Source: Acidobacteriota bacterium (GTDB lineage: Bacteria; Acidobacteriota; Thermoanaerobaculia; Multivoradales; JAGPDF01). Taken from it: 62,070 nucleotides of DNA. The DNA is taken from the NCBI GenBank assembly GCA_014584695.1, contig JACTMI010000045.1, positions 1 to 62,070 of the forward strand, written 5' to 3'. A program made the translations under genes and the position numbers. The notes under the pieces were generated by a model. That model saw only the letters and a program-made list of their open reading frames with translations. It was not told the origin of the DNA and did not search any database. Shown piece after piece: positions 10,236 to 34,880 of the stretch (positions are counted from its first letter, which is position 1; the number at the start of each line of letters is the position of its first letter).

Positions 10236-10529
10236 ATGCTCATCGAGCACATCTCGACCCTCCCGGCTGTCGACCAATTGCCGCTCGGGATTCAGCAGGT
10301 CGCTGGGCGCACGGTTCTGGTCCAATCCCGGCCCAGCTGCGGTGACCCCATCGCGGAGCGTTTCGCGCTGCGAGCTATGGATGCGATTCACTTCGCCGCC
10401 ACCGAGCGGGTCGGGGAGGCCCAGGCACCCGAGGCGGTCTCGTTCGTTTCGCTCGACCGCCGGCAGACGGACGCGGCGATTCGCCTGGGCCTGCGGGTGC
10501 CTGGGATCTTGCGCGACGGCACCGACTGA
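10236..10529 (+). pseudogene. VapC-type PIN toxin remnant (C-terminal part)
   Basis: The last 50 or so codons read ALRAMDAIHFAATERVG then AVSFVSLDRRQTDAA and LGLRVPGI. This is the usual C-terminal half of VapC PIN ribonucleases, including the Asp of the DAIH motif and the Asp of LDRR. The upstream part of this frame does not carry the N-terminal LDTS motif. A short VRREPAT-like piece lies in another frame near 10206, so the 5' half appears frameshifted or degraded. No antitoxin partner is seen. Bases 10006-10235 upstream hold no recognised gene. Confidence 0.45.
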
Positions 10530-27936: not shown

Positions 27937-30021
27937 GTGGCCCGCCGTTCCTTCGAAGAATACCTAGCTTCCGACGATCTCGCGACGATCGAGGACGACT
28001 GGATCGCCGAGATCGAGCGCGACGCGACCGACCTCGACTACTTCGTCTCGCTGGCGCAGGCCCTCGCCACCGCGGGGGAAGAGGACCGAGCGCGCGGCCT
28101 GCTCGAGCTCTACGATGCCGAGCTGCTCGAGCGCGGGCACGCCGCGACCCGGCTCGAGCTGCTGCGCCGCGCCGGGCCGCTGGTCGTCCGCTTCAACAAG
28201 ATGCAACGTGAGGTGCTGGCGACGCTCGAGCGGCTCTGGGGCGAGCGGCCCAACTACCGTTCGATGATCGAGTACGTCGGGCTGCACCGGTCGATCGACA
28301 CCCCGAACAAGCTCTGGGACGCCGTGGTCCGCTTGCAGAGCCTCCAGCTCTTCGACGTCGGTGCGATCGTCGCCATGGCGGGCCAGGGCGTCGGCCGGAT
28401 CGCCGAGGTGAATCTGCCGCTGGAGACGCTGAAGATCGACTTCGACAAGAAAGCGGGGGTCACGGTCGGCTTTCGCGCCGCGGCGAAGCTGCTCAAGCCG
28501 CTCCCCCCGGGGCATCTGCTGCGGCGCAAGCTCGAGGAGCCGGACGCTCTGGCGCGCCTGCGCGACGAGCAGCCGACCGAGCTGTTGCGCGCCGTGCTCG
28601 AGACGGCGGAGGGACCGCTCACCGCGGGCGAGATCCGCGAGATGCTCTCGGGGGTGGTCTCCGAGGCGCAGTGGACTTCCTGGTGGGCGGCGGCGCGCAA
28701 GCACCGCCAAGTCGTCGCCTCCGCCAGCGGCCGCCAGTCCTACCGCTGGGAGGCCTCCGCGGCGGGCGCGCTCGCCGCGGTCCGCTCCGCTTTCACCCGC
28801 GCCGAGCCGCGCGCCCGGATGGAGATCTTCCGCAAGAACGCCGTTCGCGACGACGAGCTGGTGCGCGACATGGCGGGCGATCTGGCATCCGTGGCGGCGG
28901 AGGCGCTCGAGAGCGATCCCGGGCTCGCGTTCGAGATCTGGTTCCTGCTCGAACGGGCCGGCCGCCTGCCCGAGGCCTTGAGCGGCGAGATCGATCAGCT
29001 GACGGGACCCGCCGTCGACAGCCGTCGGCTCCTCGCGGGTATCGAAGATCGCCTGCTGCGCGAGCGTGCGCTCGCCATGCTGCGTGAACGGCGCCCCGAC
29101 TGGCTGGAGATCTACCGCGACCACCTCACCCGCGAGAGCGACCCGCGGCTGCTGACGACGCTCGCCGACGCGCTCGCCGCGGCCGACCGACCGGCTTTCG
29201 AGCGGTGGATCGACGATCTGCTCGCCCAGCCGCGGCGCGCCACCGCGGCTTTCGTCTGGCTGGCCGAGCGCGCCGCCGAGGACGAGTGGTTGCGCGCGCG
29301 TTCACCGCTGCGCCTGATGCAGCAGGTCTTGCTCGCCCTGATCGCCGACGAGTTCTCGGCCTACCGGGCCCGTCTGCGGCCGCTCTCCGAGTCCGGCGGG
29401 ACGCTGCCCCGCCTGCTCGCGCACCTCGAGCCCGAGCAGGGCCCGACCGCGCTCGAGGCGATCCGGCGGGCGAGTGGTCTCGAGAGCTACCAGAAGGAGC
29501 CGCTCGCCAGCGCCCTGGTGATGCGATTTCCCGAGCTGCGCGAGGAGAACGCCGGCGGACCGCTCTACGCGACCGCCGAGGCGATCACCGCCAAGCGCGA
29601 GGAGCTGCGCCGGCTGACCGAGGTCGAGATCCCGGCCAACCGCAAGGCGATCGAAGAAGCTCGCGCGATGGGAGACCTGCGGGAGAACTTCGAATACAAA
29701 TCGGCGCGCGAGCGGCACGAGTACCTGAACACCCGGGTCGCGGCCCTCCACCGCGACCTGGGCCGCGCTCGCCCGATCGACTTCGCCGCGGTCGACATTT
29801 CCGAAGTCCGGATCGGTGCGCGCGTCCACGTCGCCGCCGCCGACGGCCGGCAGCGGACGCTCAGCCTGCTCGGCCCCTGGGACAGCCGTCCGGAGGACGG
29901 CATCCTCTCCTACGAGTCCGATCTCGCCCGCGCCCTGCTGGGCAAGACCCTGGGCGAGACCGTGGCGCTCGGCAACACCAGCTTCCGCATCGAGCGAATC
30001 GAGCCCTTTCGGTCCGCCTGA
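27937..30021 (+). CDS. Large GreA/GreB-domain protein with long N-terminal extension
   Basis: A 694-residue protein starting at GTG. The last 150 residues are a complete GreA-type factor. A coiled coil (KREELRRLTEVEIPANRKAIEEA) leads to the tip motif GDLRENFEY near 578, where the acidic residues that enter the RNA polymerase channel lie, followed by the FKBP-like domain (GILSYESDLARALLGKTLGETV). The first 530 residues are helical with a small beta patch (VGRIAEVNLPLETLKIDF). Long GreA-containing proteins of this kind occur in several deep bacterial lineages; their role is unclear. It may be a second, regulated transcript-cleavage factor. Confidence 0.83.
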   Translation: MARRSFEEYLASDDLATIEDDWIAEIERDATDLDYFVSLAQALATAGEEDRARGLLELYDAELLERGHAATRLELLRRAGPLVVRFNKMQREVLATLERLWGERPNYRSMIEYVGLHRSIDTPNKLWDAVVRLQSLQLFDVGAIVAMAGQGVGRIAEVNLPLETLKIDFDKKAGVTVGFRAAAKLLKPLPPGHLLRRKLEEPDALARLRDEQPTELLRAVLETAEGPLTAGEIREMLSGVVSEAQWTSWWAAARKHRQVVASASGRQSYRWEASAAGALAAVRSAFTRAEPRARMEIFRKNAVRDDELVRDMAGDLASVAAEALESDPGLAFEIWFLLERAGRLPEALSGEIDQLTGPAVDSRRLLAGIEDRLLRERALAMLRERRPDWLEIYRDHLTRESDPRLLTTLADALAAADRPAFERWIDDLLAQPRRATAAFVWLAERAAEDEWLRARSPLRLMQQVLLALIADEFSAYRARLRPLSESGGTLPRLLAHLEPEQGPTALEAIRRASGLESYQKEPLASALVMRFPELREENAGGPLYATAEAITAKREELRRLTEVEIPANRKAIEEARAMGDLRENFEYKSARERHEYLNTRVAALHRDLGRARPIDFAAVDISEVRIGARVHVAAADGRQRTLSLLGPWDSRPEDGILSYESDLARALLGKTLGETVALGNTSFRIERIEPFRSA

Positions 30022-30059
30022 CAAGCGGGCCGGCGGCCCGGAAGCTGGACGCTCAACTG

Positions 30060-30704
30060 CTACTGCTGGAGATCTCCGGACAAACGCAGGCGTTGGCCAA
30101 CGGCGACGACCTCCACGTCCGCCTCGGCGAGCAGCTCCGCCAGTTCCGGCTGCTCGGCCAGGAGAGCCGAGCGCTCCGCCTCGCTCGCCAGCCGGGGTTC
30201 GCCGAGGATCGACGGGTCGATTTCGACCCAACCACGGCTGGAGCGCTCGAACCGGCGCGTCCCGATCCGGCGTTCGGCTGGCTCGAGCCGCTCGAGCCCC
30301 GCAGCCCCCAGTCGGAAGGCGCGCGGCGCCGGCTCCGATGGCGCCGGCTCGGGCGCCCAACCCTCGAAGCCGCCGAACAGGGCCAACAGGACGGCGAGCG
30401 CGAGCACGACGGTCAACGGCAGCACCAGCGGCAGCGGCAGCAGCGCGCCCGGCGCCCGGGCGACCAGGGGAGAGGGCGCGCTCGCCCGCAGGGGGTGCCG
30501 TCCGGTGATCAGCAGGTCGAGCGCCCGCGGCGCTGGCGCCCGCTCCAGGCGGGTGAGCCCTTCCGCGACCGACCGCAGCCCCGCCAGGCGTACCCTGCAG
30601 TCGGCGCACTCGTCGAGATGCCGCCGCGCCGAGCGCCGCTCCCGGTCCGGCAGCTCGCCGTCGAGCAGCGACGAAAGATGCTCGAGGGCCAGGTGAGCGC
30701 TCAT
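30060..30704 (-). CDS. Anti-sigma factor with zinc-finger N-terminus
   Basis: A 214-residue protein. The N-terminal HLSSLLDGELPDRERRSARR then HLDECADCRVRL contains the HxxxCxxC zinc motif of ZAS-type anti-sigma factors. A membrane helix lies near 90-115 (LPLPLVLPLTVVLALAVLLALFG), and an outer domain of about 95 residues follows. It should hold the ECF sigma factor at the membrane until a signal releases it. Its ATG overlaps the sigma gene stop (ATGA at 30701-30704). Confidence 0.88.
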   Translation of the reverse strand: MSAHLALEHLSSLLDGELPDRERRSARRHLDECADCRVRLAGLRSVAEGLTRLERAPAPRALDLLITGRHPLRASAPSPLVARAPGALLPLPLVLPLTVVLALAVLLALFGGFEGWAPEPAPSEPAPRAFRLGAAGLERLEPAERRIGTRRFERSSRGWVEIDPSILGEPRLASEAERSALLAEQPELAELLAEADVEVVAVGQRLRLSGDLQQ

Positions 30705-31273
30705 GGCAGGCTCCTCAATCGGTCGCGCAGGGCCTCCCGCCCGCGCGCAATGCGCGACCGGACGGTTCCGACCGGGACCTTCAGGACTTCGGCGATCTCG
30801 TCGTAGGCGAGGCCTTCGACGTCCCTCAGCACGACCGCTTCGCGAAAGGCGATGGGCAGGCTTTCGAGCGCCGCGGCCAGGTGGCGCTCGAGCTCGGCGC
30901 CGGCGGCACGGACCTCCGGATCGGGTCCCGGCTCGGCCGGTTCGCGTCCAGGGGCTGTCAGATCTTCCAGCGTCCGCAGGACCGGTCGCTTCCGGCTCAG
31001 GCGGCTCCGGCACAGGTTGACCGTCACCCGGTAGATCCAGGTGCGCAGGCTCGCCCGCCCGCCGAAGCCGCCCAGATGGCGATGCACCCGGAGGAAGACC
31101 TCCTGCGCCAGGTCGAGCGCCTCCTCGCGCTCCCCGACCAGCCGCCAGCAGAGGTTGAAGACCAGGCCGGCGTGCCGCCGGTAGACCTCCTCGAACGCCG
31201 AGGCATCCCCGGCCGCGTGCCGGCGGGCGAGCTCGAGATCCGCAGCCAGCGGGCTCGAGAGCGGAAACGACAC
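30701..31273 (-). CDS. ECF-family RNA polymerase sigma factor
   Basis: About 190 residues with sigma region 2 (FEEVYRRHAGLVFNLCWRLV, EEALDLAQEVFLRVHRHLGGF) and region 4 (LPIAFREAVVLRDVEGLAYDEIAEVLKVPVGTVRSRIARG). There is no region 3, as expected for the group. The start is uncertain. The GTG at 31273 is the first ordinary start but lies 20 bases from the only Shine-Dalgarno (GGAGGAG at 31300-31294). A CTG codon at 31285 is spaced ideally at eight bases and would add four residues. Co-expressed with its anti-sigma factor. Confidence 0.9.
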   Translation of the reverse strand: MSFPLSSPLAADLELARRHAAGDASAFEEVYRRHAGLVFNLCWRLVGEREEALDLAQEVFLRVHRHLGGFGGRASLRTWIYRVTVNLCRSRLSRKRPVLRTLEDLTAPGREPAEPGPDPEVRAAGAELERHLAAALESLPIAFREAVVLRDVEGLAYDEIAEVLKVPVGTVRSRIARGREALRDRLRSLP

Positions 31274-31285
31274 CGAAGCGTTCAG

Positions 31286-31605
31286 CGCCCTGTCTCCTCC
31301 AGCAATTGAGACCCGCGCGAGAGGGCGTTGGTTCCCGCACGCCCCGCCCGCGCCGAGCCCCCCTGCTCTTCGGGATGCAAGAGACTGGCCGAGGGGGTGC
31401 GCTAGCCTGGACTTCTCACCAGCGTTCGTCGCGAGGGGCCGGAGCTGCCTGGGGCTGCAAGGCGCGCGACCGAGGGCCCCGCAGGCGGACCTTAGCGGTC
31501 CGTCGAGGAGCCCGACCGAGCGCAACCCCCCATACAGCGGGGGGCACAGCGCCGCAGACGCGGGCAGATCCGGACCCGCAGTAGAAAGCTGGTGAGAAGT
31601 CCAGG
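31286..31605. other. Gene-free 320-bp region carrying a MITE-like element
   Basis: This stretch lies between the sigma factor start and the amidase stop and holds no credible gene. The first 115 bases would contain the sigma operon promoter (minus strand), though no clear hexamers were found. The remainder is the inverted-repeat element described separately. Confidence 0.6.
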
Positions 31606-31610
31606 CTAGC
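31401..31610. mobile_element. 210-bp MITE-like element with perfect 23-bp terminal inverted repeats
   Basis: Bases 31401-31423 (starting GCTAGCCTGGACTTCTCACC) and 31588-31610 are perfect reverse complements. Because the outer GCTAGC is itself a palindrome, it may be target site: a CTAG duplication at 31402-31405 and 31606-31609 would leave terminal repeats starting CCTGG. A 4-bp duplication and ends starting with C resemble the IS1380 family, but this is an inference. The core has no open frame of note but contains small hairpins (CGGACC/GGTCCG at 31486-31502). The right end supplies the amidase gene's TAG stop. Confidence 0.8.
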
Positions 31611-33406
31611 TCGGTCCGGGTCGTTCCCCGAAGTAGGCCCGCAAGCCGGCGACGATCGCCCCCGCGACCTGGTCCCGGAACGCCCGCGTCTGCAGCAGCC
31701 GGCGGTCTTCCGGGTTGGCCAGGTTGCAGACCTCGAGCAGCATTCTGGCCGGCACGGCGTTGTAGCGCAGCACCGCCGGCACCCAGGCCCTGCGGCCGCG
31801 GAAGATCCGGTCGCGCACCGGCTGGAAGGGGTGGACGGCGAGACCCGCCGCGCGGAACGAGCCCAGAACCTGGCTCGCGAGATCGCGCGAGAGCCCCTCG
31901 GCCTGCTGGCGCTCCCGCAGCGAGAACTCGACCCGCGGCTGCTCGCGCACCTCCTGGCGGTCGGTGAACACGCTTCCCGCCTTGCTGAACGCCCCCGCGG
32001 TGAGCGCCGCCGCGGGAATGTAGGCGGTGGCGCCGCGCAAGGACGGGTGGAGCGAATCGGCGTGGATCGAGACGAACACCACGCGCTCCCGCCCCCCCTG
32101 CCGCACGGCGGCCCGCATCAGGCTGTTGGCCAGGTACCAGCGCAGGTGGACCCCTACCGTGGCGTCGGTGATCGGATAGGAGGGGCGGGTCAGCACCTGA
32201 TGGCCGCGCGAATAGGGCAGCACGTCCCGGTCCAGGATCTCGTACGCCCTGCCGTCGCGAGTCGTGGTGTGGACGCGCGCGTGGGTCTCGGCTTCCAGCC
32301 GCCGCTTGACCCGCAGCATCACGTCGTAGACGTAGAGGCTCTCCCAAACGCCGCCCGTCGACGCCCCGACGTCGGAGCCACCGTGCCCCGCGTCGAGGAT
32401 CACCGTCACGCCCTCCAGGCCCTTCGCTCGCACCTCGTTGCGGAACTGGTCGGCGAGCCGTCGCTCGACCTCCCACTCGAGGCGGCGAGGTTCCCCGGCG
32501 GGCAGGAACTCCGGCAGCAGCAGCTCGAACGGGATCTTGACCGGAAAACCGATCGGGATGTCGGTGACGTCCGTGATCCCGCTGCGCGCCGCGATCTCGA
32601 GCGCCAGCGCGTTGACGTCCTCGGCCAGGAGCCGCCCGGTGAAGCGGACCACGACCGCCGAGTAGAGAGCCTCACCGGGTCGCAGCCGGTAGAGCGCCAC
32701 CTTGCCCCGCTCGTCCTGGCTGAACTCGAGCAGCGCGCTGATCTGTTCCGTCGCCGCCGCCGGCGCCGCGGTGGCAGGCCTTGGCGCTCCGGTGTCCCCC
32801 GCGCGCGGCGTCGCCCTGGTCTCCGCCGCCGCTTCCGCCGGCATCGGCGCCGGCGCCGACCAGCGGAAGATCGGCTCGAGCAGCTGGTTCGGAATGCGGA
32901 TCTCCTGGCGCGCGCGGGTCCGGCTCCCCGTCAGCTGATTGGCTCGGCGGAGGGCCTCGGCGCGAGCCCCGTCGCCAGTGAACCACTCGGCGATCCGCTC
33001 GAGCTCCTCGCCGCGGCTCCGGTGCAGCCAGCCGTCCTCCGTGGCCCGGTCGTCGGGGAAAAGGGCGCGGACCGTGGCCAGCTTCCACTCCGGCGCCAGC
33101 CGCGCGTAGGGGACCCGGTAGCGCACCCCGGCGAGCAGCCGCTTCGGGTTCCGGTTGAGCCGGGCGATCTCCGCCGCCGCTTCGGTGCCGCCGGTGAGGC
33201 GGCGCGAGAACGCCAGCAGGCCCTCGCTGCGCAACGGCGCCGCCTCGAGGAAGATCTCGCGCGCGTCGACCAGCGCCGCCTGCTCGCCTCCCGGCAGGCG
33301 CGCTCGCTGCGTGGCGCCCTGCGCCGGCACTGGCGCCAGGATGGCGATTCCAGCGGCCAGCAGGGCGGCGGCCGCGAGTCGGCGGCGGCCGGCCGCGAGC
33401 CGGCGG

Positions 33407-33429
<23 letters not shown>
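31606..33429 (-). CDS. N-acetylmuramoyl-L-alanine amidase (Amidase_3), secreted
   Basis: About 607 residues. A signal peptide is seen (RRRLAAAALLAAGIAILAPVPAQGA). A helical and beta-rich middle region of roughly 320 residues comes next. The C-terminal Amidase_3 domain has zinc ligands in DAGHGGSD, WESLYVYD (Glu), SIHADS (His) and the late LLEVCNLAN (Glu). It cleaves peptide stems from glycan strands in the cell wall. GTG at 33429 was chosen because GGAG lies four bases upstream; a GTG at 33474 has no ribosome site. It overlaps gatA by 23 bp. The stop codon TAG lies inside the end of the mobile element, so the last residues may have been altered by the insertion. Confidence 0.87.

Positions 33430-34880
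<1,451 letters not shown>

Follow-up and report, generated by a model that had tools for sequence, protein, structure and literature searches.

A gene-less hairpin element on the stop codon of an acidobacterial amidase gene, and its widespread family with IS1380-like ends

The window analysed here is the whole stretch of 62,070 nt that makes up positions 1 to 62,070 of contig JACTMI010000045.1 (assembly GCA_014584695.1, an Acidobacteriota bacterium). In it, a gene for an N-acetylmuramoyl-L-alanine amidase is followed on the same strand by a gene for an ECF sigma factor, and a hairpin element of 200 bp lies between the two (Table 1). The amidase frame carries its Amidase_3 domain (PF01520, E = 2.6e-19) at residues 358-612 of 622, in agreement with the claim of an earlier reading, made from the sequence alone, that the catalytic domain was left untouched. 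The sigma factor gene and a zinc-finger anti-sigma gene form a pair which is placed between the amidase and a GreA-domain gene (window 27937-31606).

The inverted arms of the element are a perfect match over 23 bp (31401-31423 and 31588-31610), as the sequence-only reading had reported, and when extended to 31401-31427 and 31584-31610 they agree over 27 nt at 96%. On closer view the 23-bp repeat is made up of the element end, which is 18 bp long (CCTGGACTTCTCACCAGC), the 4-bp target duplication and one base that matches by chance. The strand from 31401 to 31610 folds end to end, with -145.7 kcal/mol against -94.4 ± 5.5 kcal/mol for shuffled sequences (z = -9.4); like the recurrence of the element in the genome, this is far beyond chance. 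No transposase or other recognisable gene is present inside the 200 bp, and the listed open reading frames that overlap it are mechanical readings which cover at most part of the element. The copy in the window measures 200 bp rather than 176 bp because of an extra hairpin of 24 bp.

Table 1. Features at the 3' end of the amidase gene (positions of the window)
Feature	Position	Strand	Remark
Mobile hairpin element, 200 bp	31406..31605	+	Structural-model match R1 over 31406-31605, 130.3 bits
Left target-duplication copy, 4 bp, CTAG	31402..31405	no strand	Duplication status in the family from a nested insertion
Right target-duplication copy, CTAG; holds the amidase stop codon	31606..31609	no strand	
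Left terminal inverted repeat, 18 bp, perfect	31406..31423	+	
Right terminal inverted repeat, 18 bp, perfect	31588..31605	-	
Subterminal motif TTCGTCGCGAG	31425..31435	+	Exact or near-exact in related elements of several phyla
Additional small hairpin, 24 bp	31526..31549	+	Missing from the 176-bp copies at C3 and C17
Amidase TAG stop codon, within the target copy	31606..31608 (read 31608-31606)	-	
N-acetylmuramoyl-L-alanine amidase (Amidase_3) gene	31606..33474	-	Insertion most likely targeted its stop
Gene for an ECF sigma factor, downstream and co-directional	30701..31285	-	Start codon provisional; same gene order, without the element, in G003

The assembly (48 contigs, 97.84% complete) holds further copies. 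A query of 221 bp finds, besides itself, four near-complete copies in both orientations with identities of 97%, 87%, 87% and 85%, and the structural model, with at most six candidates scored per genome, gives at least six matches, the sixth at C7; a solitary element end is located at C38. Five copies have recognisable ends, and four of the five are flanked by CTAG on both sides while the fifth has CTAG/CCAG. A very weak structural-model match in the window at 10420-10505 (13.3 bits, E = 0.073) is probably due to chance. Thus the amidase element has the marks of a MITE, namely a length of 200 bp, no internal gene, perfect ends of 18 bp, CTAG on both flanks and multiple genomic copies, and the non-autonomous, MITE-like transposon proposed by the sequence-only reading is supported by the genome search that it called for.

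As CTAG is palindromic, the four flanking bases could in principle belong to the element ends instead of to the target. The family provides an informative case in the Fermentibacteria genome G076 (Candidatus Fermentibacteria CSMAG_2897), where at locus L237 an element of 177 bp is nested in another family copy with GTAG at each side, and the uninterrupted relatives of the nested host copy (two at L235, one at L241) have a single GTAG at the insertion point. In the same genome identical, non-palindromic 4-mers stand in direct orientation in 5 of 22 copies; the flanking 4-mers mostly differ there, and one inverted pair, TTAG/CTAA, appears under looser pairing. Among 48 copies of the phylum found with the model, 18 have identical direct 4-mers (10 CTAG, 6 TTAA, 1 CTAA and 1 TTAG) and none has an inverted pair only, with 16 of the 18 being palindromic, so that only two are informative on duplication versus end. 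These comparisons show that in the family the four bases arise by duplication of the target, and they support the possible CTAG duplication of the sequence-only reading for the element in the window, which has CTAG on both sides. G076 is also the site of a large expansion of the family, nested into itself (e.g. L237, 16900-17076): with up to two mismatches allowed, its 4.1 Mb contain the end motif 228 times forward and 215 times reverse, whereas the reversed pattern occurs 10 times in each direction.

With the duplication identified, the amidase stop codon can be assigned. The sequence-only reading had placed the TAG in the terminal repeat; it does lie within the 23-bp repeat as seen, yet there it belongs to the CTAG target copy and not to the element end. 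When the element and one CTAG are removed in silico, the rejoined frame closes with ...CCG AGC TAG, the stop being the codon used now, so the suggestion that the element end supplied the stop is not supported. Because the TAG is inside the target copy, the amidase most likely already ended there before the insertion, although no empty allele of the locus was found and the nearest relative has an amidase of 66% identity that ends in TGA. The protein also looks ordinary at its end, contrary to the proposal that the insertion had reshaped the C-terminus: six residues (ERPGPS) follow the conserved YFG/FFG, against between 3 and 14 in five relatives that lack the element at this gene (QNG in G003, EGAAARPAGGRGRR in G004, EKR in G005, APR in G006 and ARR in G007), the tail comparison leaving aside G001 and G002, which have a different motif (YYD) at that position.

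In all, seven relatives of the window's family were compared at the amidase, whose stop is TGA in six and TAG in one. The sequence-only reading had named a lack of other copies and an inverted repeat shared by orthologues as what would speak against a transposon; what is found is that copies exist and that 0 of the 7 relatives have the element at the amidase. The window copy matches nothing in four of the seven genomes, and in the remaining three what it matches is on other contigs. In the sister genome G003 the gene order amidase, sigma factor, zinc-finger gene is shared, with a gap between amidase and sigma factor of about 100 bp, against 116 bp here after subtracting 204 bp. The sigma/anti-sigma pair thus follows the amidase in G003 likewise (loci L180 and L182-L186 compared), while in the stretches of G001, G002, G005, G006 and G007 the GreA-domain gene comes next after the amidase and no match to the pair is present.

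The reading in which CTAG is part of the inverted repeat, so that the element end gave the stop and the amidase was truncated or altered, agrees with the position of the TAG, which in the window falls inside the visible inverted repeat, and with the CTAG flanks of most copies in GC-rich genomes. It is at odds with the varying flanking 4-mers, whose identical non-palindromic cases repeat directly, with the nested GTAG case and its uninterrupted sites having one copy of the four bases, and with the normal length of the amidase tail; being already contradicted at the family level, it is judged very unlikely. The element most likely neither gave the amidase its stop nor visibly altered the protein. 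A stop codon which is inside a repeat and is read as donated by a transposon can be the wrong way round.

Next we consider what moved the element. The sequence-only reading described its ends as IS1380-like, and a comparison with full IS1380-family elements bears this out. In the same order, locus L149 of G068 is an IS1380 element of 1743 bp with a frame of 494 residues, ends CCCGGATTTCTCAC and CTAG on both sides. The same arrangement of ends and flanking CTAG marks IS1380 elements of a Gammaproteobacteria MAG (L199), which has a short copy as well (L111), and of the Planctomycetota MAG OFTM9 (L200), which has dozens of end matches. The IS1380-family element of P. putida pKF715A (L372) and ISMaq4 of Methylophaga frappieri (L376) both show CTAG|CCCG.ATTTCTCA on both sides, and an IS1380 element on a Mesorhizobium plasmid has CTAG with differing tips. 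Overall, 7 of 16 scanned IS1380 stretches have a CTAG/CTAG-flanked end and share with the short elements the ends CC[CT]G..[CT]TTCTCAC or CCCGGATTATTCATGA together with the 4-bp CTAG duplication. The other nine are without such an end: L373 (the IS1380A copy of Acetobacter), L374, L377, L378, L150, L157 and L371 lack it, L375 has the end with a duplication that does not match, and L151 has CTAG/TTAG with a poorer end. The likeness is confined to the outer 14-16 bp or so plus the duplication: the full elements differ in having about 1.6-1.75 kb and a transposase, and the core structural model finds no match in 15 IS1380 stretches.

The tips of the short elements vary at both ends jointly. In the window's order they are mostly CC[CT]G..[CT]TTCTCACC with CTAG, and other copies in the phylum have the tip CCCGGATTATTCATGA with TTAA or CTAG; this second type is seen on the IS1380 element L203, one end being exact and the other having one change. 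The pattern fits element tips that follow differing IS1380 transposases.

The transposases themselves are unevenly found. A full element with a transposase, which the sequence-only reading suggested to look for in this genome, is missing, as PF13701 (IS1380-family) has no match in the assembly. In the window's order 17 of 72 genomes have PF13701 matches, 15 above the cut-off, and so do 4 of the 10 genomes reached via element copies, three of them above it. Among 30 PF13701 stretches of the order both ends are seen only in L149, and one end in L166 and L176, which are short contigs; in 80 stretches (L068-L147) scanned for a full element with a transposase between such ends, only short pairs are found. 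The term 'IS1380-mobilised MITE' is therefore supported by the comparison of ends and not by a resident transposase, and an IS1380 transposase as the mover is what these ends point to, none being left in the assembly.

Put together, the element is very probably a MITE that was moved in trans by an IS1380-family transposase into the amidase's own C-TAG stop. In this mechanism an IS1380-family transposase (DDE, PF13701), acting in trans, would insert the element at the CTAG that is the amidase stop; a staggered cut would double the four bases, by which the TAG would stay with the amidase and the other side would lose nothing; and the duplication of a palindromic CTAG would spare even two convergent genes with a common stop. 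Copies would come to lie on TAG stops in several GC-rich genomes, above all in two Planctomycetota, because the target, CTAG, is a rare tetranucleotide, because copies that land within genes are lost and because the duplication is harmless.

Several known systems are similar in part. The Chunjie MITE of Geobacter uraniireducens (178-235 bp; PMC10969869) is alike in size, inverted ends, direct repeats, many copies and the lack of a transposase; unlike Chunjie as it is known from that review, the element here has one core across phyla, at least two end types and an excess of copies at stops in some genomes. The piggyBac superfamily, distant eukaryotic relatives of IS1380, is alike in its 4-bp TTAA-type duplication and CCC-type ends, and differs in being eukaryotic; published work on piggyBac takes IS1380 as the outgroup and describes TTAA duplications (PMC10813416, PMC10140906). 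Related literature deals with prokaryotic MITEs (PMC10969869), transposons of Paracoccus (PMC3281130) and TIMEs (PMC4133298). A further reading would be a repeat of the REP/RAYT type, moved by a tyrosine (HUH) transposase. The element is a palindromic repeat that lies mostly outside genes, and REPs often end in GTAG (PMC3733652); GTAG-type REPs, though, are described there as having 20-40 bp and a HUH transposase and as not being two-ended and IS-like. With a length of 176-200 bp, a perfect inverted repeat at either end and a duplicated target of 4 bp, the element is outside the REP range of 20-40 bp without two IS-like ends or target duplication, and its ends are also those of some IS1380 (DDE) elements, which makes this reading extremely improbable.

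Beyond this genome, the 16-bp end was scanned over one genome per species, giving 81 stretches, of which 80 were checked for end pairs. Inward-facing pairs, mostly about 160-220 bp apart, occur in MAGs of Planctomycetota, Nitrospira, Gammaproteobacteria and Fermentibacteria, and beyond the ends these share subterminal motifs and, to varying degree, a core. An alignment of 15 copies (13 of the window's order and 2 of Fermentibacteria) has a mean column identity of 79% and a structure of 58 pairs, 33 of them with compensatory changes. Its covariation amounts to 0.464, whereas shuffles give 0.208, with none of 500 coming up to the observed value, and sliding gives no more than 0.087; the covariation supports the structure rather than proving it, since the structure was derived from the same, related sequences, and the arms could also stay alike via template switching between them.

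Of the 396 genomes of the phylum, 66 are matched by the covariance model built on this structure; they belong to 49 of 210 genera, and the model matches 40 of 338 genomes of at least 90% completeness, the training genomes being included in these counts; nearly all of the matches listed span the full model length. The model also matches 38 of the 81 stretches of the end scan (13 of 44 and 25 of 37), belonging to MAGs of the same four groups, among them the Fermentibacteria copy L129, which was in the model. In the remaining 43 stretches the 16-base end may be there by chance or as a remnant, and where a MAG has a single copy, wrong binning can account for it. Plasmid and phage records have no match to the 176-bp copy at the DNA level, and no viral contig has the end plus the subterminal motif.

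Such a conserved hairpin might instead be a functional RNA or regulator, an attenuator or mRNA stabiliser for instance, that is kept for the host. The compensated pairs, a core kept between phyla, and the position between the co-directional amidase and sigma factor genes would fit this; a survey of IS neighbourhoods has IS1380 over-represented between co-directional genes (PMC9208149). The sites, however, are scattered, the orthologous amidase loci compared are without the element, there are matching ends as well as target duplications, no promoter- or terminator-like match is seen, Rfam 15 has no match to the element at the gathering score or at E up to 1, and covariation is also obtainable from template switching. 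We regard a host RNA as improbable, and the transposon moved in trans as the preferred reading. The family is widespread, strongly covarying and without an Rfam match, so that including it would improve the annotation of genomes of acidobacteria and planctomycetes.

The position on a stop codon was then compared with that of other CTAG sites. Genes were called per genome with a home-made caller, trained on frames with GC3 > GC1 > GC2, the elements having been removed beforehand. The sample comprises 51 CTAG/CTAG-flanked copies from nine GC-rich genomes and 513 other CTAG sites in the same stretches of ten genomes, G002 contributing 5 control sites and no CTAG/CTAG copy; G076 (Fermentibacteria) was excluded from the tests based on the caller because its flanks are mostly not CTAG. 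Of the 51 copies, 35 are on a TAG stop (4 of these common to two convergent genes), 15 are intergenic and 1 is inside a gene, whereas the 513 controls fall on 177 stops, 199 intergenic sites, 135 sites in genes and 2 gene edges. Stops are thus in excess against all the rest (35/51 against 177/513, Fisher p = 3e-6; odds ratio 4.0 and p = 2.9e-5 when stratified by genome). They are also in excess against intergenic sites, the ratio being 35:15 for the copies and 177:199 for the controls (p = 0.0025; odds ratio 2.6 and p = 0.007 when stratified by genome), an excess that is not decisive, since the intergenic controls include promoters, where insertions may also be lost. A further 18 copies with imperfect flanks are outside the 51, and 7 of them are at stops.

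The caller was swapped after the first result had been seen: an earlier, poorly trained caller gave 32/51 against 161/513 and put the amidase copy 'in gene'. A crude first version, which took in all groups including Fermentibacteria and judged stops by a codon-position rule, had 31 out of 104 for TAG-bearing flanks and 53 out of 414 for the control CTAG sites.

The excess is uneven. Two Planctomycetota drive it, with 17/19 at stops against 32/73 (stop:intergenic 17:2 against 32:34, p = 0.0014). In the window's order 18/32 against 145/440 gives p = 0.011 against the rest, and stop:intergenic is 18:13 against 145:165 (p = 0.26); the window's own family has 3/10 against 25/98, that is, no excess of stops. 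Among 20 further copies in five genomes three are at stops, all of them in G014 (3/5 against 4/92 CTAG sites, p = 0.002), and in G191 0 of 4 TTAA-flanked copies are at stops, against 7 of 245 TTAA sites. The amidase case is hence one of a real class, which in its own family is no commoner than CTAG stops themselves.

It is rather probable that this parking on stops is a shadow of the CTAG distribution and of selection against insertions in genes, without stops themselves being preferred. Base composition predicts 4431 CTAG sites where 592 are counted, a 7.5-fold deficit, stops already make up the large share of control sites given above, copies inside called genes are nearly missing where controls there are many, and the order, the family and G191 behave as a shadow would. 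The excess over intergenic sites in the nine genomes, driven by the two Planctomycetota, and the same direction in G014 run against it. Target rarity and selection can explain most of the stop parking. The results suggest how such an element persists in dense genomes, as a palindromic target with a stop, duplicated on insertion, would cost the host gene nothing.

What lies at the amidase is a gene-less hairpin of 200 bp on the stop codon of a gene that is not visibly harmed, and it is a member of a widespread family. No description of the family, of IS1380 with CTAG, or of stop-codon insertion by IS1380-type elements was found in open-licence papers. The wider family, with its conserved core and uneven stop bias, is a more interesting result than the single locus. 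Excision of piggyBac elements is seamless. Tentatively, and as a possibility that we hold to be somewhat doubtful, the copies in MAGs of five phyla might be one old hairpin lineage of about 176 bp, recognised by its conserved folded core, whose tips were refitted to the resident IS1380 transposase, and for which CTAG stops would be safe sites, since insertion, and excision too if it is as seamless as that of piggyBac, would spare one or two genes.

Internally shortened copies of 67-78 bp that keep both ends are seen at L269 (1589-1655, flanks CTAG/TTAG), L275 (4849-4926, CTAG/CTAG) and L279 (6336-6408, CTAG/CTAG), all at stop codons; movement may therefore not need most of the core. In addition, copies part two convergent genes with a common stop tetranucleotide, each gene keeping its own TAG, at L207, L253, L279, L287, L314 and L357; the tetranucleotide shared in these pairs is CTAG, with TTAG/CTAG at L314.
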